Source: Candidatus Firestoneibacteriota bacterium
Lineage (GTDB): Bacteria > Oederibacteriota > JAAXVQ01
Reading direction: 5' to 3'
Assembly: GCA_013335425.1 (NCBI GenBank)
Contig: JAAXVQ010000003.1
Coordinates: forward strand, 1 to 17,075
DNA length: 17,075 bases
The notes under the pieces: generated by a model
What the model was told of the DNA's origin: nothing
Databases searched by the model: none
What the model saw: only the letters and a program-made list of their open reading frames with translations
Translations under genes and position numbers: made by a program
In this document: positions 2,509 to 15,923 of the stretch, in pieces
How the letters are laid out: every line of letters starts with the position of its first letter
How positions within the stretch are numbered: the stretch's first letter is position 1

Positions 2509-3084
2509 TCACGCCTTTACTTTTTTCAGCAACCACGCCATGTTCTCGCCCAGCACCTGCATGGTGCGCATGCCCTCTTCGTCCTTTTCCACGGCCCCGG
2601 ACTCCCGGCCGATACCGATATTCCAATAACTGGACCCGGGAATGATCATCTGCCCGATGGTGAAAAAATGGTTCAAACTGTCCCAGGCGTGTATGGCGCC
2701 CCCGCGCCGGACCGCGACCACGGCCGCGCCCACCTTGCGCCGCAGGCAAGAGTCGTTGCTGCGCGACACCATGCCCGCCCGGTCGACCAGTGCCTTCATC
2801 TCCGAGGTGATGTCCGAGAAATAAACCGGCGAGCCCAAAAGAATACCGTCGGCCGCCGCCATCTTGGCCACGCACTCATTGAGCACGTCGTTGGCCAGCA
2901 CGCATTTCAAGTCCTTGGTCTTGCCGCAGGTGCCGCACCCCGTGCAGCCGCGCAGGGTCTTCCCCGCCAATTGCACCAGCTCGGTTTCCACCCCCGCTTT
3001 TTCCAGCTCCGCAAACACGGCCCGGATTAAAATCGCCGTATTCCCGTCCTTGCGCGCACTGCCGTTGAACGCCACAACCTTCAT
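2509..3084 (-). CDS. Iron-sulfur flavoprotein / NADPH-dependent FMN reductase family
   Basis: This 191-residue flavodoxin-fold protein begins with the FMN phosphate loop [10 protein letters not shown] (residues 7-16). Cys47, Cys50, Cys53 and Cys61 (C-x2-C-x2-C-x7-C) match the compact cluster-binding motif of Isf-type iron-sulfur flavoproteins, which carry FMN plus a 4Fe-4S cluster and shuttle electrons in redox or oxidative-stress metabolism. [19 protein letters not shown] is the usual second flavin-binding segment. No signal peptide or membrane segment is seen. The start has GGAG nine bases upstream. The gene lies 76 bases downstream of polC on the same strand and converges on murB, with an AGGGGC-N12-GCCCC palindrome on each side. 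The electron donor and target cannot be told from the sequence; a plain NAD(P)H quinone/FMN reductase is the alternative. Confidence 0.87.
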
Positions 3085-3130
3085 AATGAATTCTCCTTAT
3101 TTAGGCGGAAATATTTATCGCGTTTTTGGC

Positions 3131-3153
3131 AGGGGCATGACCTGTCATGCCCC
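3131..3153. repeat. Intergenic palindrome AGGGGC-N12-GCCCC, copy 2
   Basis: The perfect arms GGGGCATGAC (3132-3141) and GTCATGCCCC (3144-3153) flank two bases, and an outer GGC/GCC pair (3128-3130 and 3154-3156) extends the stem around a bulged A. It lies between the polC stop and the start of the flavoprotein gene. In the polC direction it is followed by an A-rich stretch and not by T, so a canonical Rho-independent terminator is unlikely. Confidence 0.6.
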
Positions 3154-3160
3154 GCCAGTA

Positions 3161-6100
3161 TTAAAATAATGTAGTCTGGTCGGTTTTGGGCAGGACGCCC
3201 AGGCAGCCGTGCTGCGCTAAAATTTCAATTACGTTTTTGTTCGCACCGGTACGGCGGGACAAATCTTCTTGGGAACGGAACGGACGCCCCGGGCGTTCGG
3301 CCACAATGCGGTCCGCGCAGGTGGCGCCTAAGCCTGCCAGGGCGCACAAGGGCGGCAATAGCTCGCTGGGGCCCGTAAGCGTGAACAACCGTGCGTCGGA
3401 TTCCATGAGTGCGACCGGGCGGAAACGGATGCCGCGCGCCAGGGCTTCGCGCACCACTTCCAACACCACCACCTCGTCTTTTTCCTTGGCCGTCAAGTCC
3501 TGCCGGGCTTTGAGTTCCGACAAGTGCGCCACCACGGCCTGACGCCCGCGGACCACCAAGTCCGCGTCGAACGCTTCGGCGTTGAGCGTGAAGTAGTTGG
3601 TGTAAAACGCCGCGGGGTGATGCACCTTGAAGTAGGCGATGCGGAAAGCCATGATGCAGTAGGCCACGGCGTGCGCCTTGGGAAACATGTATTTGATTTT
3701 TTTGCAGGACTCGATGTACCACTCGGGCACCTGGGATTTTTTCATTTCCGCTTCCTGGTCCTCGGCCACGCCCTTGCCCTTGCGCACGTTTTCCATGATT
3801 TTAAAGGAGAGTGCCGGTTCCATGGATTTGGAAATCAAATAATTCATGATGTCGTCGCGCGCGGAAATGACCGACGAAAGGGTCGCGGTTTTGTTGCTGA
3901 TCAAATCCGCGGCATTGTTGAGCCACACGTCCGTGCCGTGGGAAAGGCCCGAAATGCGCACCAGTTCCGAAAACCGGGTCGGCTTGGTGGCTTCCAGCAT
4001 CTGGCGCACAAACTCGGTGCCGAACTCGGGGATGCCCAGCGTGCCCAAACCCGTGCCGATGTCCGCGGCCGTAATGCCCAAAGTTTCCACGCTCGAAAAT
4101 ATCTTCAGCGTCTCGGGGTCGTCCAGGGGAAGCGAGCGCACGTCCAAGCCCGTCAAGTCCCCCAAACGGCGCAACGAAGTGGGGTCGTCGTGCCCCAGGA
4201 TGTCGAGTTTCACCAGCGAGTCGTGGATGGCGTGGTAGTCAAAATGCGTGGTAATGATGTCGCTGGTCTTGTCATCGGCCGGATGCTGGATCGGGGTGAA
4301 ATCGTAAACATCCAGATCCTCGGGTACGATCATGATGCCGCCGGGGTGCTGCCCGGTGGTTTTTTTCACACCCGAACAGCCGCGCGTCAAGCGGTTGATC
4401 TCAGCCTCGCGCAGCACCAGCTTGTGCTCTTCCAAATACTTTTTCACGAAGCCGTAGGCAATGCGCTCGGCCACGGTGGAAATGGTCCCGGCCTTGAAGA
4501 TGTGCTTGTTGTCAAAAAGTTCCTCCACGTACTTGTGCATGGTGGATTGGTAGTCGCCGGAAAAGTTCAAGTCAATGTCCGGCACCTTGTCGCCCTTGAA
4601 ACCCATGAAAACTTCGAAAGGAATGTCGAAGCCGTCTTTGGTCAACAGGGTCCGGCAAGTTGGGCACTCGCGGTCCGGCAAGTCCGCGCCAATGCGCCGG
4701 GCGGTGTCGATTTCAAAAAAGTGACAGGCCGGGCAGAGGTAATGCCCGGGCAGGGGGTTGACCTCGGTAATGCCCAGCATGGTGGCCGTAAGCGAGGAGC
4801 CCACGGACCCGCGCGACCCGACCAGATACCCGTCCTCCAAAGATTTTTTAACCAGTTTGCGCGCGATTAAAAACAGCGACGCATAATTGTTGCCGTTGAT
4901 GGCCTTGATCTCGCGATCCAGCCGGGTCACCACCGCCTCGGGCAGGGGTTCGCCGTACTGGGACTTGGCTTGCGCCTGAGCCATGGTCTGAAGTTCGCTC
5001 TCGGCGTTTTTCAATTTGGGCGGATGGAACGTGTTCTTCAAGGGCTGGATGGCGTCCACACTCTCGGCCACAGCCTGCGGGGCCGTGACGACCACTTCGC
5101 GGGCCGCGTCTTCGCCCAGGTAAGCGAACTCCGCCAACATCTCGTCCGTGGTTTTCAAATAAAGCGGCGCCTGCAGGGCCGCGTCCTCGTAACCCATGCC
5201 GGATTGCAAAATAGAGCGGAACACCTCGTCCCCGGGTTCCAAAAAGTGCACGTCCCCGGTGGCCACAACGGGTTTGCCCAACCGGCGCCCCAGCGCATAA
5301 ATGCGTTGGTTCATGCCCAAGAGTTCTTCCTCGCTTTTGAGCACTCCCGAGCGCAGCAAAAACCCGTTGTTGCCGCGCGGCATGATCTCCAGGTAATCGT
5401 ACTTTTGGGCAATGCTTTCCATTTCCGCTTCCGTCGCGCCTTCGAGCATGCGCCGGAAAAGCTCCCCGTTTTCACAGGCTGTACCCAACAGCAGCCCTTC
5501 GCGGCATTCGGCCAACAGGCTCCGGGGAATGCGGGGGTTGCGGTAATAATGTTTCAGGTGCGCTTCCGAGACCATGCGGTACATGTTCTTAATGCCCGCG
5601 GGGCGGGCGATGAGAATGCTGATGTGATAGGGGCGCACGCTCTTGTCCTGCCCCCAGTTGTCCTCGACCAAATACCCTTCCATGCCGAAGAGCACTTTAA
5701 TTTTATGTTTGACCGCGGCGGCGGCCGCTTCGGGAAAGGCTTGCACCACGCCGTGGTCGGTGATGGCAATAGCCGGGTGCCCGAAGGCCGCGGCCTGGGC
5801 CACCAAGTTCTCCACGCTGGCGAGCGCGTCCATGGCGGAAATTTGCGTGTGCGCATGCAGTTCCACGCGTTTCTCCGCGGCCTGGTCTGTCCGTTTGGGC
5901 TTGTCCCCCAGGGAAATGTCCTTCATAAACAAAGTCAAATCCTGGGTGAACTTATCGAACTGGACCGTGCCGCGCAGGCGCGCATAGGACCCTTGCTTGA
6001 GTTCCGGGGGCAGGTGCTTGCCCGCGTCCACGAAAAAACGGGCGTTGATGGTACCGGTCTTGTCGTAGACGTCCATGAGCACCAACAACCGCCCGGTGCG

Positions 6101-6895
6101 CAGGGTCTTGCATTCGTAGGTGATTAATTCGCCTTCGATGACGACGTTGTCTTCTTCTTCGGTGATTTGAATGATGGGCTTCGGGGGCGAGGCCACTTTG
6201 CGTCCGTAGATGGGACGCCAAACGGCCCGGGGCGCGGCCGGGGAGCCTTCGCTTCCGCCGCCTGCGGGCGCTTCCTCATCGCTCTCGGCCTGCAGTTTCG
6301 CCAGTTCTTCGTGAATGCGCTGCTGGTAGAGCGCTTCGCGTTTCTGCACTTCCTCGCCGCAATCGCCGATCTCCAGGCGCACGCTGACCTCCCCGCCAAC
6401 GCGCTCGGTCAACAGACGGCTCAAAGTTTCCTCGCCTTGGCGCCGTTGCAGGGCGGCCAAGGACATTTCGTTGGGGACGCTGATGCGGATGCGGTTGCCG
6501 TCGCCGTTGCGGAAACGGGCGATGGAAAGATACGCCCCGGCCATGTTCACATCGCGCGAGAGCAAATCCACCACGTCGGACCAATGTTCGGTCAAATATT
6601 GAAAGGGACTGACCCGCCCCTCGGGGTAATGCACGTCCCAGGTTATATGAAAGTTCGGAGGGCTCCCCAGCGCCTTGGTCACTTCCGCGCGCACGCTCTC
6701 GAGGCCCGCCTTGGACAACAACTCGCCCGAGAACAGGTCGATGGTAACGCTCCCGTTGCCCGGAGAAACCAGGATCGCCTGGGGTTGGGCGTTGAGCAGC
6801 GTTTTTTTCGCGTCGTCGGGGATTTCCAGGGCTTCGATTAGAGACCGCAACCGGGGGGTGAACCCTTCGGGTTTGACACTGACGTCCGGGCGCAT
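3161..6895 (-). CDS. polC: PolC-type DNA polymerase III alpha subunit without the inserted exonuclease domain
   Basis: This is a replicative DNA polymerase of the C family, PolC branch, 1244 residues. Order: an N-terminal region (1-230); an OB fold (about 248-335); a PHP domain starting at about 345 with H347-A-H349, ITDHG and ATGDVH (about 545); the palm with VGSRGSVGSS (about 690); a four-Cys zinc site (CPAC...CPTC, about 720-745); catalytic Asp773 and Asp775 in PDIDLNF and probably Asp898 in LDILGHDD; a fingers segment YMFPKAHA; and the C-terminal clamp-binding peptide QTTLF. Bacillus PolC is about 1437 residues and has a DEDD 3'-5' exonuclease inserted in PHP after the GMEA-type motif. 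Here GMEGYLVED runs through a short linker into PYHISIL, so the insert is absent, which explains the roughly 190-residue difference. ATG at 6895 was chosen over TTG at 6907 because GGAG stands six bases before it. It has its own strong promoter. Confidence 0.96.
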   Translation of the reverse strand: MRPDVSVKPEGFTPRLRSLIEALEIPDDAKKTLLNAQPQAILVSPGNGSVTIDLFSGELLSKAGLESVRAEVTKALGSPPNFHITWDVHYPEGRVSPFQYLTEHWSDVVDLLSRDVNMAGAYLSIARFRNGDGNRIRISVPNEMSLAALQRRQGEETLSRLLTERVGGEVSVRLEIGDCGEEVQKREALYQQRIHEELAKLQAESDEEAPAGGGSEGSPAAPRAVWRPIYGRKVASPPKPIIQITEEEDNVVIEGELITYECKTLRTGRLLVLMDVYDKTGTINARFFVDAGKHLPPELKQGSYARLRGTVQFDKFTQDLTLFMKDISLGDKPKRTDQAAEKRVELHAHTQISAMDALASVENLVAQAAAFGHPAIAITDHGVVQAFPEAAAAAVKHKIKVLFGMEGYLVEDNWGQDKSVRPYHISILIARPAGIKNMYRMVSEAHLKHYYRNPRIPRSLLAECREGLLLGTACENGELFRRMLEGATEAEMESIAQKYDYLEIMPRGNNGFLLRSGVLKSEEELLGMNQRIYALGRRLGKPVVATGDVHFLEPGDEVFRSILQSGMGYEDAALQAPLYLKTTDEMLAEFAYLGEDAAREVVVTAPQAVAESVDAIQPLKNTFHPPKLKNAESELQTMAQAQAKSQYGEPLPEAVVTRLDREIKAINGNNYASLFLIARKLVKKSLEDGYLVGSRGSVGSSLTATMLGITEVNPLPGHYLCPACHFFEIDTARRIGADLPDRECPTCRTLLTKDGFDIPFEVFMGFKGDKVPDIDLNFSGDYQSTMHKYVEELFDNKHIFKAGTISTVAERIAYGFVKKYLEEHKLVLREAEINRLTRGCSGVKKTTGQHPGGIMIVPEDLDVYDFTPIQHPADDKTSDIITTHFDYHAIHDSLVKLDILGHDDPTSLRRLGDLTGLDVRSLPLDDPETLKIFSSVETLGITAADIGTGLGTLGIPEFGTEFVRQMLEATKPTRFSELVRISGLSHGTDVWLNNAADLISNKTATLSSVISARDDIMNYLISKSMEPALSFKIMENVRKGKGVAEDQEAEMKKSQVPEWYIESCKKIKYMFPKAHAVAYCIMAFRIAYFKVHHPAAFYTNYFTLNAEAFDADLVVRGRQAVVAHLSELKARQDLTAKEKDEVVVLEVVREALARGIRFRPVALMESDARLFTLTGPSELLPPLCALAGLGATCADRIVAERPGRPFRSQEDLSRRTGANKNVIEILAQHGCLGVLPKTDQTTLF

Positions 6896-6930
6896 AGCCG
6901 ACTCCAAGAACCAACAATTCCAACGAAGCG

Positions 6931-6960
6931 ATTATAATCTCACGATCTTTTGCACGTCAA
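6931..6960 (-). promoter_or_regulatory. Near-consensus sigma70 promoter for polC
   Basis: On the minus strand TTGACG (6960-6955), an 18-base spacer and a perfect TATAAT (6936-6931) precede polC. Transcription would start near 6924, giving a leader of about 30 bases. It is the best promoter match in the window. Confidence 0.75.
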
Positions 6961-7149
6961 GACCAAAGCCCAAAAGCCGGGAATCGCCAAGAAATATGGG
7001 GCGAAAAATTTTCGAAAAATACGCTCCGGCATCGTTGCGCCCACACCGTCGGGGTTCCGCCACTGCTTTTTTCGCTTTAGCGCCCCGGCCTTGCTTCCGT
7101 AACTAAAAATGTGCGATTGAAAAAGATCTTGAATCCCGGGAGGCAGGTT
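6961..7149. other. Intergenic region between divergent polC and the first receptor gene
   Basis: I see no gene here. It holds a short palindrome CGAAAAATTTTCG (7002-7014), a small CGCT/AGCG hairpin near 7070-7080 and no convincing sigma70 promoter for the rightward receptor gene. An in-frame GTG at 7111 would extend the receptor by 13 residues but has no ribosome-binding site and no counterpart in the paralogue. Confidence 0.4.
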
Positions 7150-7962
7150 ATGCGCAATAAAATTCACAGTTTGGGCGTCAAACTCACGTTGAGCTTTATG
7201 TTCCTGATTTTATTCGTCACGGCTCTGATGTATGCCTTAACGCTGACCGAGATTAAAAAAGCGCTCAAGGAAGTGGTGCGTTCGGAATTATCCGCTATTT
7301 CCCAGATGATGGCCCTGGAATTAAACGGAGCCGATGGCGATGTCATGCAAAAGCTGCAAGCCGGCGATGAAAAAACCGAACTCTATGCGCGCATTAAAAC
7401 CAAACTCAAATCTTTCCAAGGCGTCCACCCGGACATCAAATACATCTACACGATGAAAAAGAACGGCTCTGAAGTGCAATTCATCGTGGACCCGATGTAC
7501 GGCGATGCCGCAGACCCGGGTGCGGCTATTGGGGAAAAATACGCGGACGCCAACCAGATCCTGCTGGGCGGGTTTGAAAAATCCTCCACCGACGCCGATT
7601 ATCACGCGGACAAATGGGGGACCTTTTTATCGAGTTATGCGCCCGTGCGCGATTCCAAAAACGAGCTTATCGGCCTGGTGGGGGTCGACATGTCCGCCAC
7701 CACTGTGATTCAAAAACAAAACTTCATCGGCATGATGATCTATTTGGCCACCGGGATCGCCGTGCTGCTGGCCACGGTCATTATCTTTATTTTTTCCGTG
7801 ACCATCATCAAGGACATTCATAAGCTCAACCGCGCGGCCAGCGACATCAGCCTGGGAAAAACCGACGTGGAGATCGGCGTGGTGCGTAAGGATGAAATCG
7901 GAGATCTGGCGGAGTCTTTCGGCCGCATGGTGACCTCGCTTAAAATTATGATGCAAAAATAA
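7150..7962 (+). CDS. Cache-like sensor receptor ending at HAMP, copy 1
   Basis: This 270-residue membrane receptor has no recognisable output domain. TM1 is at about residues 8-32. An extracytoplasmic Cache/PDC-like domain (about 35-190) follows, with HPDIKYIYTMKK, FIVDPMYGD, WGTFLSSYAPVRDS and LIGLVGVDMSATT, a pattern common in ligand-sensing Cache domains. TM2 is at about 191-217. A HAMP domain with DEIGDLAESFGRM ends the protein. The HAMP position usually held by Pro at the start of its first helix is Asp (TIIKDIHKL). The start at 7150 is supported by GGGAGG six bases upstream and by alignment with the paralogue at 9227, about two thirds identical by eye. With no kinase, methyl-accepting or GGDEF domain, it presumably signals through a separate partner; the small gene that follows is the candidate. 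The ligand is unknown. Confidence 0.88.
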   Translation: MRNKIHSLGVKLTLSFMFLILFVTALMYALTLTEIKKALKEVVRSELSAISQMMALELNGADGDVMQKLQAGDEKTELYARIKTKLKSFQGVHPDIKYIYTMKKNGSEVQFIVDPMYGDAADPGAAIGEKYADANQILLGGFEKSSTDADYHADKWGTFLSSYAPVRDSKNELIGLVGVDMSATTVIQKQNFIGMMIYLATGIAVLLATVIIFIFSVTIIKDIHKLNRAASDISLGKTDVEIGVVRKDEIGDLAESFGRMVTSLKIMMQK

Positions 7963-7976
7963 TTCAATCATCCCAA

Positions 7977-8011
7977 CCGCCACCTGGCGTATCGCTTCGC
8001 CGGGCAGGCGG
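7977..8011 (+). other. GC-rich hairpin between receptor 1 and its small partner gene
   Basis: CCGCC (7977-7981) pairs with GGCGG (8007-8011), and CCTGGCG (7983-7989) pairs with CGCCGGG (7998-8004) with one G-U, giving 12 pairs around a small internal loop. No T-run follows. It may set the ratio of receptor to small protein by partial termination or mRNA processing, or it may be a dispersed palindrome. Confidence 0.5.
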
Positions 8012-8037
8012 CAACCGAAACAAGGATGGGACCGATC

Positions 8038-8283
8038 ATGAGCAACTCACTGTCCGAACGGGTTTACGAAGCCAGCGTTCCCTATTTGGGGCCGGCGGCC
8101 ATGGTGTTTCTCAAACGCCAAACCGCCACCCATATGGGGGGCCTGAATTTTGAGCAGATTACCCTTACGGATCTTCCCGAACTGCTGGGTTGGATACTTA
8201 TTTCAGGGAGGCTGCTCATCGGCCCCAAAGCCGACGACTTGGTCGGGAAACTGCAAAACGAGTTTAATGTCAGACTGCAATAA
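8038..8283 (+). CDS. Small conserved protein paired with the HAMP receptor, copy 1
   Basis: I do not recognise this 81-residue family. The protein is soluble, has no signal peptide or membrane segment and looks mostly helical. It shares about 46 of 81 residues by eye with the product at 10141, including YxGPAA, FLKRQTxTHMGGL, FEQIT and WILISGR. This conservation is stronger than expected for spacer translation and supports a real gene. The start at 8038 was chosen because it aligns with the paralogue and has AAGGA and GGGA upstream; an in-frame ATG at 8026 is weaker. It follows receptor 1 by 75 bases and precedes the barrel gene by 24 bases, so the three are probably co-transcribed. A cytosolic partner that receives the HAMP signal is the natural guess, but no function can be assigned from sequence. 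Confidence 0.82.
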   Translation: MSNSLSERVYEASVPYLGPAAMVFLKRQTATHMGGLNFEQITLTDLPELLGWILISGRLLIGPKADDLVGKLQNEFNVRLQ

Positions 8284-8307
8284 AATCCCGTTTAAGGAGA
8301 CAAACCT

Positions 8308-9060
8308 ATGTTTAAGCTCAAAAAATTCGCTAGTCTGATGATGTTTCTGGCTCTGACCTCCCCGACAGGGGCATTCGCCGCGGGAATTTTAAACGATACC
8401 GGACTCGCTTTCACCGGAACCATTGATGGGTATTCCCGTTACATTTGGCGGGGGTTCACGGTAGAGTCCAAGCCGGTACTGCAGCCGGGTCTCACGCTCA
8501 GCGGTTACGGCGCCAACGTGAACCTTTGGGGGTCCATGCCCTTGCGCGGCAATTCCGAAACCGCGCCGAGCGATGAAATCGATTTGACTGTGGGTTATGC
8601 TTTTGAGTTTGCGTCCCTCGGCTTTTCCGCGGGTTATCTGGCTTACACCTACCCTTATGCCGACAACCTGGCGACGCACGAAGCCTCGGTCGGCGTCGCG
8701 TTGGGAAAATTTTTGCCGTTTGATTTGAACCTGACGTATTACTTCGGTTTGGAAAACCAAGAGGGCGGCAACGAGTCCTACGGGTCCGTGGATGCGGCCA
8801 AAACCTTCACCCTGGGTTCGGCCCCGGATTTTACCCTGGCGCTGCACTATGGTTGGTTGAGAAATTACGATTTCGGAGCAGGGTTGGGTAACGGCGGCGA
8901 TGCCATGATCTCACTTAAAGCCGCTTTGTCGTTAGGGGAAAAAGTCAGTCTGACACCGACACTGGCCTACGTCTATCCTTTCGGTGATGTGGCCGATGAA
9001 AACCTCGGAGCTCAGAGCCCTACGTTTTTCGGAGGCCTCAGTTTTGGTTTCGGTAATTAA
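8308..9060 (+). CDS. TorF-like putative outer-membrane beta-barrel protein
   Basis: The 250-residue protein starts with a signal peptide (KLKK, hydrophobic LMMFLAL, cleavage probably after AFA at residue 24). The mature part is rich in Gly, aromatic residues and alternating polar/hydrophobic stretches typical of beta-strands. The early motif YSRYIWRGF followed by PVLQPGL resembles the TorF family of putative porins, in which a similar Y-WRG segment opens the barrel. It ends in GLSFGFGN, not in the classic terminal Phe. The start has AAGGAG eight bases upstream. It sits between the two receptor cassettes on the same strand, 24 bases after the first small gene, suggesting that it brings the sensed compound through the outer membrane or is regulated with the sensors. 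Family placement is fair; substrate unknown. Confidence 0.78.
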   Translation: MFKLKKFASLMMFLALTSPTGAFAAGILNDTGLAFTGTIDGYSRYIWRGFTVESKPVLQPGLTLSGYGANVNLWGSMPLRGNSETAPSDEIDLTVGYAFEFASLGFSAGYLAYTYPYADNLATHEASVGVALGKFLPFDLNLTYYFGLENQEGGNESYGSVDAAKTFTLGSAPDFTLALHYGWLRNYDFGAGLGNGGDAMISLKAALSLGEKVSLTPTLAYVYPFGDVADENLGAQSPTFFGGLSFGFGN

Positions 9061-9095
9061 TTTCATAAAGGTCGTTTCATACTCTTTTTAATTTT

Positions 9096-9116
9096 CCTCT
9101 CCCCTTGTGGGAGAGG
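9096..9116. repeat. CCTCTCCC/GGGAGAGG palindrome
   Basis: The perfect 8-base arms (9096-9103 and 9109-9116) flank a five-base loop, followed by GGGAGGGG. The wording closely resembles the widespread CCTCTCCC...GGGAGAGG intergenic repeats seen in many bacterial genomes. There is no T-run after it on either strand, so termination is uncertain. Confidence 0.5.
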
Positions 9117-9226
9117 ATTAAAGGGAGGGGAATTTATTAAAAAGATTTTTAACACAAAATTAATTTGTTTAAAAAGTCCGGAGGCGGGGACCAACCGCCT
9201 CGTCTGCCGTTTCCAGGAGTCGAATC
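9117..9226 (+). other. AT-rich leader of receptor 2 with hairpins
   Basis: The stretch 9131-9176 is strikingly AT-rich compared with its neighbours and contains TTAAAAA-GA-TTTTTAA (9137-9152) and an ACAAA/TTTGT inverted repeat around 9154-9168, possible regulator sites. A hairpin GAGGCGG/CCGCCTC (9181-9187 and 9195-9201, loop GGACCAA) follows just ahead of the ribosome-binding site. No sigma70 promoter could be chosen with confidence. Confidence 0.35.
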
Positions 9227-10144
9227 ATGAACTTCAAGCTTAACAGCTTGGGCGTCAAGCTGACCTTGAGCTTTCTGCTGTTGATCGGTTTCGTAACCGT
9301 CCTCATGTTCGCGTTAACCCTCACCCACACCAAAAATGCGTTGAAAGAGGTTGTGCGTTCGGAACTGACGGCGGTTTCGCAATTGATGTCGCTGGAACTA
9401 AGCGGCGCGGACGCGGATGCCATGAAAAAAATGCAGGCGGGCGATGAAAAGACCGCGGCCTACGATCGTATTCGGGCTAAATTGAAAAAATTCCAATCCG
9501 TTCACCCGGACATCAAATATATTTACACCATGAAAAAGACGGGTGCCGAGTTGCAGTTTATCGTGGACCCGATGTACGGCGATCCTCACGACCCGGGCGC
9601 GGGTATTGGGGAAAAATATGCGGATGCGACCCCCTGGATGGTGGCCGGTTTTGAAGACATCTCAACGGAGGAAAATTACAGTTCGGATAAATGGGGGCAG
9701 CTCCTTTCCAGTTACGCGCCGGTATGCGACTCAAGAGGTGAGCGCATCGGCCTGGTGGGCGTCGACATGTCGGCAGCCACCGTGATCCGCAAGCAAAAAT
9801 TCATCGGTCTGACCATCTATCTGATCGCGGGCATCGCCGCGGCACTCGCTGCGGCTATGATCTTCGCCTTTTCCGCCACCATCATCAAGGACATTCATCA
9901 ACTCCAACGCGTGGCCAACGATATCAGTCAGGGTAAAGCCTCGGTGGAAATCACCGTGGTCCGGCAAGATGAAATCGGAGAACTCGCAAGATCCTTCAGA
10001 CGCATGGTGGCATCGTTGAAAATTATGATGCCGCCAAAAACCCCGCAGCCGGAGGGGTTGAGTACAACGTCCCGCTCCCCAGCCGGCGTTCCGGGGAAAC
10101 CCCGGACGCAGAAAAAAAAATCTCGGGGTCGGAGTTTGCCATGA
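9227..10144 (+). CDS. Cache-like sensor receptor ending at HAMP, copy 2, with a basic tail
   Basis: This 305-residue paralogue of the receptor at 7150 has the same layout: TM1 (about 8-32), Cache/PDC-like extracytoplasmic domain with HPDIKYIYTMKK, FIVDPMYGD and LLSSYAPVCDS, TM2 (about 191-217) and HAMP with DEIGELARSFRRM. The usual HAMP Pro is again Asp (TIIKDIHQL). Unlike copy 1 it continues about 37 residues past LKIMM in a Pro/Lys/Arg-rich, low-complexity tail ending KKKSRGRSLP. That part matches no domain and looks like a translated former spacer. Its stop overlaps the next start (ATGA). Nine A in the tail (10112-10120) precede this overlap and could allow slippage into the next frame. 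The start has AGGAG about eight bases upstream. No output domain is present. Confidence 0.88.
   Translation: MNFKLNSLGVKLTLSFLLLIGFVTVLMFALTLTHTKNALKEVVRSELTAVSQLMSLELSGADADAMKKMQAGDEKTAAYDRIRAKLKKFQSVHPDIKYIYTMKKTGAELQFIVDPMYGDPHDPGAGIGEKYADATPWMVAGFEDISTEENYSSDKWGQLLSSYAPVCDSRGERIGLVGVDMSAATVIRKQKFIGLTIYLIAGIAAALAAAMIFAFSATIIKDIHQLQRVANDISQGKASVEITVVRQDEIGELARSFRRMVASLKIMMPPKTPQPEGLSTTSRSPAGVPGKPRTQKKKSRGRSLP
10090..10106 (+). other. GC hairpin in the tail of receptor 2
   Basis: The perfect arms TCCGGGG (10090-10096) and CCCCGGA (10100-10106) flank AAA. It lies six bases before the run of nine A, inside the coding sequence, at the place corresponding to the intergenic hairpin of cassette 1. 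It could influence slippage or be what is left of the spacer. Confidence 0.45.
10112..10141 (+). other. A9 run linking receptor 2 to its small partner gene by a possible -1 shift
   Basis: The receptor frame reads the nine A as three Lys codons. The frame of the small protein is the -1 frame and is open from the A-run to its ATG at 10141 (codons for EKKISGSEFA). One extra A in the RNA, or in the true DNA sequence, would therefore join receptor and small protein into one polypeptide. Whether this happens is unknown; runs of nine or more A are known sites of polymerase slippage and of sequencing error. Confidence 0.4.
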
Positions 10145-10401
10145 CAAACCCCTTGGCGGAACAAATTCACCTTACTTGCGTTGAATACTTCGGGCCGGCG
10201 GCTTTGGAATTTTTAAAACGCCAAACCATCACCCATATGGGCGGTCTGGATTTCGAACAGATCACGCCCCCGGACCTCCCCAAGTTGCTTCACTGGATTT
10301 TGATTTCCGGCCGCTTTATCATCAACGCGCAGGCCGATGAACTGGTGAAAACTTTGGAAGACCAGTTGCATGTCAAAGCGACCATGAAAGTGAAAGCCTA
10401 A
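10141..10401 (+). CDS. Small conserved protein paired with the HAMP receptor, copy 2
   Basis: The 86-residue protein is the paralogue of the product at 8038. It shares EYFGPAALEFLKRQTITHMGG-type wording, DFEQIT, the WILISGR segment and an A-D-x-LV near the end, and adds five C-terminal residues (MKVKA). There is no membrane segment or signal. The start codon overlaps the receptor stop in ATGA, which indicates translational coupling; no clear ribosome-binding site is present apart from GGAG nine bases before. The coupling, and the conserved order receptor then small gene in both cassettes, argue that the two products act together at the membrane. The family is not one I can name, so no biochemical role is claimed. 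Confidence 0.84.
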   Translation: MTNPLAEQIHLTCVEYFGPAALEFLKRQTITHMGGLDFEQITPPDLPKLLHWILISGRFIINAQADELVKTLEDQLHVKATMKVKA

Positions 10402-15492: not shown

Positions 15493-15855
15493 TTATTCGA
15501 TCAGCCAATCCTTGGCCGCTTCCATTTCTTTGAAATAGTGCATGAGCTTGTTGTTGGTGGCGGAAATGACCAGCGAAGCCAGGATGCGGTGAAAAGCATT
15601 GGCCCCCACGATGGCCAACTTGTAAACGAACTGTTTGGTGACGGCCGTGTCCTCGCGCATAATGCCGGCAATTTCGCGGGTGACGACGCTGTTCTCCAGG
15701 TTGATCAGCAGCAAAATGCGGGTCTTGCCGCAACGCTGGAGTTCACGCCCGCAGGCTCGGATGACGTCCACGAATTCCTGCCCTTTGAGGGAAGCGTAAT
15801 CCACGTAAAATATTTCATGCCCACGGTGCGTAATGAAGGATATGCGTTCAGCCAT
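15493..15855 (-). CDS. SpoIIAA-like / STAS-like small cytosolic protein
   Basis: The 120-residue protein has the alternating beta-alpha pattern of the STAS/SpoIIAA-like fold: ILLLINLENS as a core strand, KLAIVGA as the next strand after an amphipathic helix, and a C-terminal HYFKEMEAAKDWLIE, which resembles the F-x-x-x-EEAxxWL ending of the SpoIIAA-like family. The phosphorylatable Ser motif of true anti-sigma factor antagonists (D-S-S/G-type) is not visible, so a SpoIIAA-style partner switch is doubtful. The start at 15855 is chosen for GAGG eight bases upstream and for the family's usual length; an upstream in-frame start would add 13 basic residues. It sits 68 bases after the glycosyltransferase and 93 bases before the pldA-like gene, with a GGCGG-TTCG-CCGCC hairpin (15892-15879) in the first gap. 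Role unknown. Confidence 0.72.
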   Translation of the reverse strand: MAERISFITHRGHEIFYVDYASLKGQEFVDVIRACGRELQRCGKTRILLLINLENSVVTREIAGIMREDTAVTKQFVYKLAIVGANAFHRILASLVISATNNKLMHYFKEMEAAKDWLIE

Positions 15856-15923
15856 GACCGAACCTCGCTTGAAGGATAGGCGGCGAACCGCCAACGATCC
15901 CGTGCGTTACGCCCCCCGGGTGG

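Follow-up and report, generated by a model that had tools for sequence, protein, structure and literature searches.

The window analysed here, a stretch of 17,075 nucleotides (nt) from contig JAAXVQ010000003.1 of a Candidatus Firestoneibacteriota bacterium (assembly GCA_013335425.1; genome of 2.59 Mb in 525 contigs), carries two tandem copies of a gene pair coding for a transmembrane receptor that ends after its HAMP domain and for a small helical protein, and each pair is probably a split transmembrane receptor of the kind described as Af1503/Af1502 in Archaeoglobus fulgidus, with the small protein as a stand-alone STAC-type partner. By sequence or by predicted structure, the architecture consists of an extracytoplasmic sensor, a second transmembrane helix, a HAMP domain and an early end, followed in the next gene by a separate STAC-type helical protein. 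All four genes of the pair and its copy proposed in an initial annotation of this DNA are present, and that annotation mentioned neither a porin-like gene between the pairs nor the 48-residue tail of the second receptor. The genes, in order, are:

7150-7962, plus strand: receptor 1, an open reading frame (ORF) of 270 amino acids (aa) with a first transmembrane helix, a single-Cache/PAS-like sensor, a second transmembrane helix, HAMP and then the stop codon
8038-8283, plus strand: small protein 1, 81 aa, a stand-alone STAC-type protein
8308-9060, plus strand: porin-like outer-membrane protein, 250 aa, located between both pairs
9227-10144, plus strand: receptor 2, 305 aa, a paralogue of receptor 1 whose tail is longer and rich in Pro, Lys and Arg
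10141-10401, plus strand: small protein 2, 86 aa, a stand-alone STAC-type protein

The split-receptor reading is well supported by how conserved and how tightly coupled the pairing appears in sequence comparisons. The repeated co-occurrence that had been named in advance as support for it was found, with 62 of 68 distinct small-protein matches lying directly behind a same-strand HAMP-ended receptor in bacteria and archaea; the opposite outcome, a small protein occurring mostly without such a receptor, was not observed. The 68 are the matches that were examined, with identical peptides merged and close Chloroflexi orthologues kept separate, and they exclude the neighbours of most of the 73 small-family proteins (the window's two included) which iterated searches found at E 0.01 among 5.8 billion. 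Also left out are L007, L029 and L062, with no frame at E 0.1, and the matches G525:C22, G485:C1:980097 and G522:C87, for which no locus was at hand; the first two of these (L093 and L096, respectively), fetched later, both follow a HAMP-ended ORF. The six unpaired matches are the free-standing genes of genomes G017 and G035, a fragment in G516 and, in proteins of another kind, three weak matches.

The gap between receptor and small protein does not exceed 27 nt in 61 of the 62 pairs, with start codons chosen mechanically for the measurement, and the genes overlap in 12 pairs, by 4 nt in 11 of them and by 1 nt in one. The translational coupling claimed for copy 2 can be read directly from the sequence as an ATGA overlap, and copy 1, with its 75-nt spacing, is the outlier. 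It is highly improbable that the two genes are coincidental neighbours which share an operon and have no joint function. Gene order alone never proves an interaction, but this order, always with less than 28 nt between the genes, is found repeatedly in both bacteria and archaea whose sensors are unrelated. In a background test covering 40 fetched loci, a HAMP-ended ORF preceded 21 of the 23 small ORFs by no more than 100 nt, versus 2 of 465 other ORFs, so pairing by chance was rejected. The greedy ORF calling used in that test missed many small genes (hence 23 in 40 loci); one of the two background cases (L101) is probably a wrong-frame ORF lying over a small gene, and the free-standing G017 gene (L112) should account for one of the two small ORFs left unpaired.

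A receptor profile gave a similar result when searched against the 232 genomes of the order to which a Methanomicrobiales record belongs: the 21 best matches, scoring 367-436 bits, all lie beside a small gene, and the next match scores 230 bits, a gap which is partly there by construction because the profile was built from paired receptors. At E 1e-30 the profile matches 87 of the 232 genomes. As for a common fusion of the small protein to HAMP, none was found at E 1 among 39 candidates of 190-604 aa, which is a weak rejection, coming from one query and an exact-word search that missed the Chloroflexi fusions described below.

Both window receptors possess a Pfam HAMP domain (residues 218-264 at E 3.3e-10 in receptor 1 and residues 216-264 at E 3.6e-11 in receptor 2), and no output domain was found after it in either of them, as the initial annotation had stated. 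The Cache-like sensor which it placed between the transmembrane helices stands on the predicted structure, while no curated Cache model passes its cut-off in either receptor. The model of receptor 1 (mean predicted local distance difference test score, pLDDT, of 85 from a 17-row alignment) has a sensor matching that of DcuS (3by8; TM-score 0.80 by target length, 2.8 Å) and also resembling the extracytoplasmic PAS/sCache domains of WalK and a formate chemoreceptor.

Pfam HAMP is present in all 62 receptors preceding a small protein, and none of the 62 has an output domain, including kinase or methyl-accepting chemotaxis protein (MCP) signalling domains (Pfam, E 0.01). The invariant HAMP phenylalanine is followed by 13-28 residues in 61 of them and by 48 in window receptor 2. 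The sensors vary from pair to pair (dCache_1 in 18 receptors, 4HB in two and CHASE3 in one), with HAMP and the small partner being constant. The top PDB match of receptor profile A8 is 4gn0, entitled "Hamp domain of AF1503" (E 3.5e-9, HAMP region only), followed by the HAMP domain of a sensory rhodopsin transducer (E 5.7e-8). The receptors share with Af1503 a sensor between transmembrane helices, a related HAMP as the sole cytosolic domain and no effector, and the kinase or MCP domain that would follow HAMP in a histidine kinase or chemoreceptor is missing.

The assignment of the small proteins to STAC draws on several signals that agree, each of them modest by itself. Neither window protein has a match in Pfam, NCBIfam or PHROGs, and small protein 1 has none among the PDB sequences; membership in a Pfam, NCBIfam or PHROGs family was rejected, the relatives giving just scattered weak single-member matches to Pfam. 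No known unrelated job for the family, which would have spoken against a receptor partner, was met with in the material examined. The best structural match of the modelled small protein in the PDB is Af1502 (5A1Q), a stand-alone STAC, whose four-helix bundle fold is predicted here as well. Profile A9, built from divergent members, has Af1502 as its top PDB match (E 0.049, at the LGP motif); it matches the main small-protein profile A5 at 99.8%, although four rows are common to both. With 81 and 86 aa the window proteins fall within the length of about 60-90 residues expected of a stand-alone STAC, are coupled in the genome to an Af1503-like receptor and are complete ORFs rather than parts of an SLC5-STAC fusion. 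The motif LGPx(x)A between helices 1 and 2 is represented by LGPAA in copy 1 and FGPAA in copy 2; its G and P are invariant across the 45-row alignment A5, and many relatives have LGPAS, a loose fit to the motif. In the distant family members P0064-P0077 the motif is mostly YLGPASxRFIDRQ, and a domain-wide search with the distant group (A10) found no genomes beyond those already found.

The two small proteins share 57% identity by alignment, the value earlier estimated by eye, and the motifs GPAA, FLKRQTxTHMGGL, FEQIT and WILISGR proposed as their core are each invariant between them. The receptors are 70% identical at the protein level and 72% at the DNA level. The pairs, packed into 3.3 kb, look like paralogues that arose by duplication in this lineage, since no aligned relative is as close to either window copy as the other copy is. 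Both window junctions depart from the rest of the family, possibly through inserted or drifted sequence. The spacer of copy 1 (7963-8037) can form a hairpin (folding z -2.7), and the region coding for the Pro/Lys/Arg-rich extension of receptor 2 (10027-10140) has a folding z of -1.4.

If the pairs work as split receptors, ligand binding would alter the HAMP bundle, the STAC protein would bind the HAMP dimer at its cytosolic end, and it would then carry the HAMP state on to a separate effector. The split receptor of the initial annotation holds as far as the pairing (62 of 68) and its spacing (61 of 62) are concerned; that the small protein receives the HAMP signal, by direct contact between STAC and HAMP, is what we infer in addition.

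Several observations weigh against this reading. The Foldseek E value of the small model against Af1502 is 0.83, and both this and the sequence match at E 0.049 are below significance; the main profile A5, searched against the PDB, does not list Af1502 at all. In the available part of PMC4834066, Af1502 is reported to be monomeric in solution, and in one study (PMC5715377, likewise in part) deletion of STAC from CbrA and CrbS made no obvious difference to growth. The family is rare and patchy, being found in 6 of 384 sampled genomes, and both the small gene and the receptor are missing from G001, the one further genome in the window's genus and about 99% complete, a case of recent gain or loss. 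HAMP-ended receptors (HAMP by eye) with no small gene beside them are present at L144 (G614) and L145 (G618), which are the two top-scoring receptor-profile matches below the 21 paired ones. Conversely, two genomes of the window's phylum, G017 and G035, have the small gene with no adjacent receptor, and neither genome gave a match to the sCache-type receptor profile at E 1e-20, in a search which would miss receptors with other sensor types; since these genomes have the small gene and no sCache-type receptor was found in them, the small protein can work otherwise.

The L144 and L145 receptors are Cache-like proteins of 263 aa with a different HAMP tail and adjoin PEGA-like repeat proteins by eye. 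The free-standing small genes (L004/L022 in G017 and L005/L023 in G035) lie near genes which by eye are HtpX-like and NifU-like, and the small protein of G035 is shared with the contig of candidate division FCPU426 mentioned below.

As regards distribution, genome counts were made at E 0.001, with the query's own genome counted where it was searched. Apart from the 6 of 384 genomes sampled around the window, small-protein matches were found in 4 of 45 genomes of the window's phylum and in 7 of 10 genomes from the phylum that includes G310, those in G384 and G389 being weak. In the order containing the Methanomicrobiales record, 27 of 232 genomes had a match, and in the classes containing a Chloroflexi and a Bathyarchaeota record the counts were 20 of 177 and 5 of 250, respectively. 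One further genome scan gave 7 loci, including Chloroflexi, Methanomicrobiales, Methanospirillaceae, Bathyarchaeota and candidate division FCPU426.

G384, G385 and G386 (L028, L030 and L031) contain a gene coding for a 203-204-aa protein whose C-terminal part weakly matches the small family (E 5e-4 to 9e-4; 91% by profile). It has no GP motif and no HAMP receptor in front, and its roadblock look is by eye only, as Pfam gave no roadblock match; in L031 the following gene matches an ATP-synthase F subunit. In the Methanomicrobiales record's order, L056-L061 and L096 have a transmembrane HAMP protein of about 140-155 aa, with almost no sensor, before a divergent small protein. L096, L104 and L088 also share a nearby protein of 231-252 aa, the copy in L096 being without a Pfam match.

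The surroundings of the pairs bear on what the small protein may act upon. The porin-like gene of the window is related to the TorF family putative porins (TIGR02001, E 1e-8), although its 35 bits are below the cut-off of 47.15, and its place between the pairs hints that sensing is tied to uptake. The pair in G029 is adjoined by genes for PII and an ammonium transporter. A further gene there, labelled by eye as a TorF porin, gave no family match and that label was rejected; its product is 36% identical to the window porin-like protein over 77 residues. The 133-aa protein encoded at 15496-15894 on the minus strand of the window has no Pfam match at E 0.01.

The porin-like gene and the PII and ammonium transporter genes fit equally well a link to transport in which the main role of STAC is to connect the receptor with a membrane transporter or channel, gating it or reporting on it, rather than feeding a signalling effector, and we keep this as the main rival explanation while considering it somewhat unlikely. 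It was also proposed by the authors who described STAC that the domain regulates solute transport, transport components having been noted by them near Af1503-like receptors (PMC4834066, the part available), and in CbrA the STAC domain docks under the SLC5 transporter according to the available part of PMC13022988. Some archaeal loci may be added, with a PhoU match near the L093 pair and a nearby solute-binding protein at the L090 pair that is PstS-like by eye, the phosphate link of these loci being otherwise by eye. However, many loci have no adjacent transporter by eye, and the STAC-TPR fusions and receiver-ATPase neighbours described next point to signalling outputs.

In the Chloroflexi class, the small domain starts a longer frame in 17 of the 20 positive genomes (two of these frames are cut by contig ends); of the remaining three, the contig of L071 ends inside the domain and two genomes have a free-standing small protein. 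The Chloroflexi receptors before the small domain carry HAMP, and the 18 dCache_1 receptors are presumably the 18 that precede the 17 longer frames and the domain in L071. Two long Chloroflexi proteins that were scanned have TPR matches, both below cut-off. The TPR-like extension fused to STAC could serve as the effector arm in this class. The fusions also bear on the suggestion that the small protein is a regulator or a stabilising cap and that the receptor signals otherwise, for instance in mixed dimers with full-length HAMP proteins. Tight translational coupling suits a subunit or a cap as well as a signal carrier, and the Methanomicrobiales record's order does contain longer proteins (frames of about 440-1160 aa) that match the receptor profile in their front half. 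Even so, a cap leaves unexplained why in 17 Chloroflexi genomes the same domain stands at the start of long proteins encoded immediately after HAMP-ended receptors, and we regard it as unlikely. The probabilities that we attach to the rival explanations overlap with that of the split receptor, and neither transporter coupling nor a cap is fully exclusive with it.

For the split receptor itself, the neighbours at some archaeal loci offer candidate effectors. The genes after the pair in L093 and L099 code for a receiver-HATPase protein and a soluble protein that combines HAMP_2 with MCP-signal domains, and these genes are a candidate output pathway in which the receiver-ATPase protein and the soluble MCP-like protein would together act as the effector. 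The archaeal pairs L090 and L105 are also followed by a receiver-HATPase protein, by eye. Directly upstream of the L092 pair (2683-7418) there are genes coding for a receiver-PAS protein, a STAS protein and an anti-sigma-like ATPase, resembling a partner-switch module, and near the Bathyarchaeal pair L121 there is a gene with a sub-cut-off roadblock match. No neighbour of the receiver-ATPase, MCP-like, STAS/anti-sigma or roadblock type was found beside the pairs in the window, to which this search was confined, the rest of the genome not having been searched.

A wider proposal, which we put forward tentatively and to which we give rather less than an even chance, is that STAC is a general detachable receiver of HAMP signals in bacteria and archaea, so that any sensor may be mounted on a bare-ended HAMP and the outputs may be exchanged. 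The sensors in question would be sCache, dCache, CHASE3/4HB or nearly none, STAC would be alone or fused to a TPR-like scaffold, and the outputs would comprise receiver-ATPase kinases, soluble MCP-like proteins, STAS/anti-sigma partner switches and roadblock-like proteins. This modularity of sensors and partners is the interesting part of the system, and with 62 natural pairs of varied sensors and candidate outputs in Chloroflexi and at some archaeal loci, the question is directly testable by binding and deletion experiments.

Among known systems, Cache-HAMP histidine kinases and chemoreceptors such as WalK, CreC and the MCPs have the same front half as the window receptors (transmembrane helix, sensor, transmembrane helix, HAMP), but in them a signalling domain follows HAMP, whereas the window receptors have no kinase, phosphatase or MCP domain; the best NCBIfam alignments of the latter, to WalK and SiaA, are far below the cut-offs. 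In the CbrA and CrbS kinases, STAC is situated between the portion in the membrane and the portion that signals in the cytosol (PMC13022988 and PMC5715377, the parts available), so it is internal to the SLC5-STAC kinases, between a transporter-like membrane part and the kinase, whereas in the window it is a protein of its own, encoded after a HAMP receptor. The closest counterpart is Af1503/Af1502 from Archaeoglobus fulgidus, for which the translational coupling of a HAMP-ended receptor with a stand-alone STAC was described in 2015 (PMC4834066), contrary to the statement in the initial annotation that no system of this form had been described. In the available part of the same paper, Af1503-like archaeal receptors are said to be often genomically coupled to proteins of 60-90 residues, and Af1502 is reported as a sequence singleton; its sequence similarity to the window small proteins is marginal. 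The window pairs agree with Af1503/Af1502 in that the receptor ends after HAMP, the next gene codes for a helical protein of 60-90 residues with the LGP motif, and the two are translationally coupled, and they differ in that the published family is archaeal while the window case is bacterial, tandemly duplicated and has a porin-like gene between the copies. The type of pair is therefore already described, and the bacterial case with its tandem duplication adds a new member to it.

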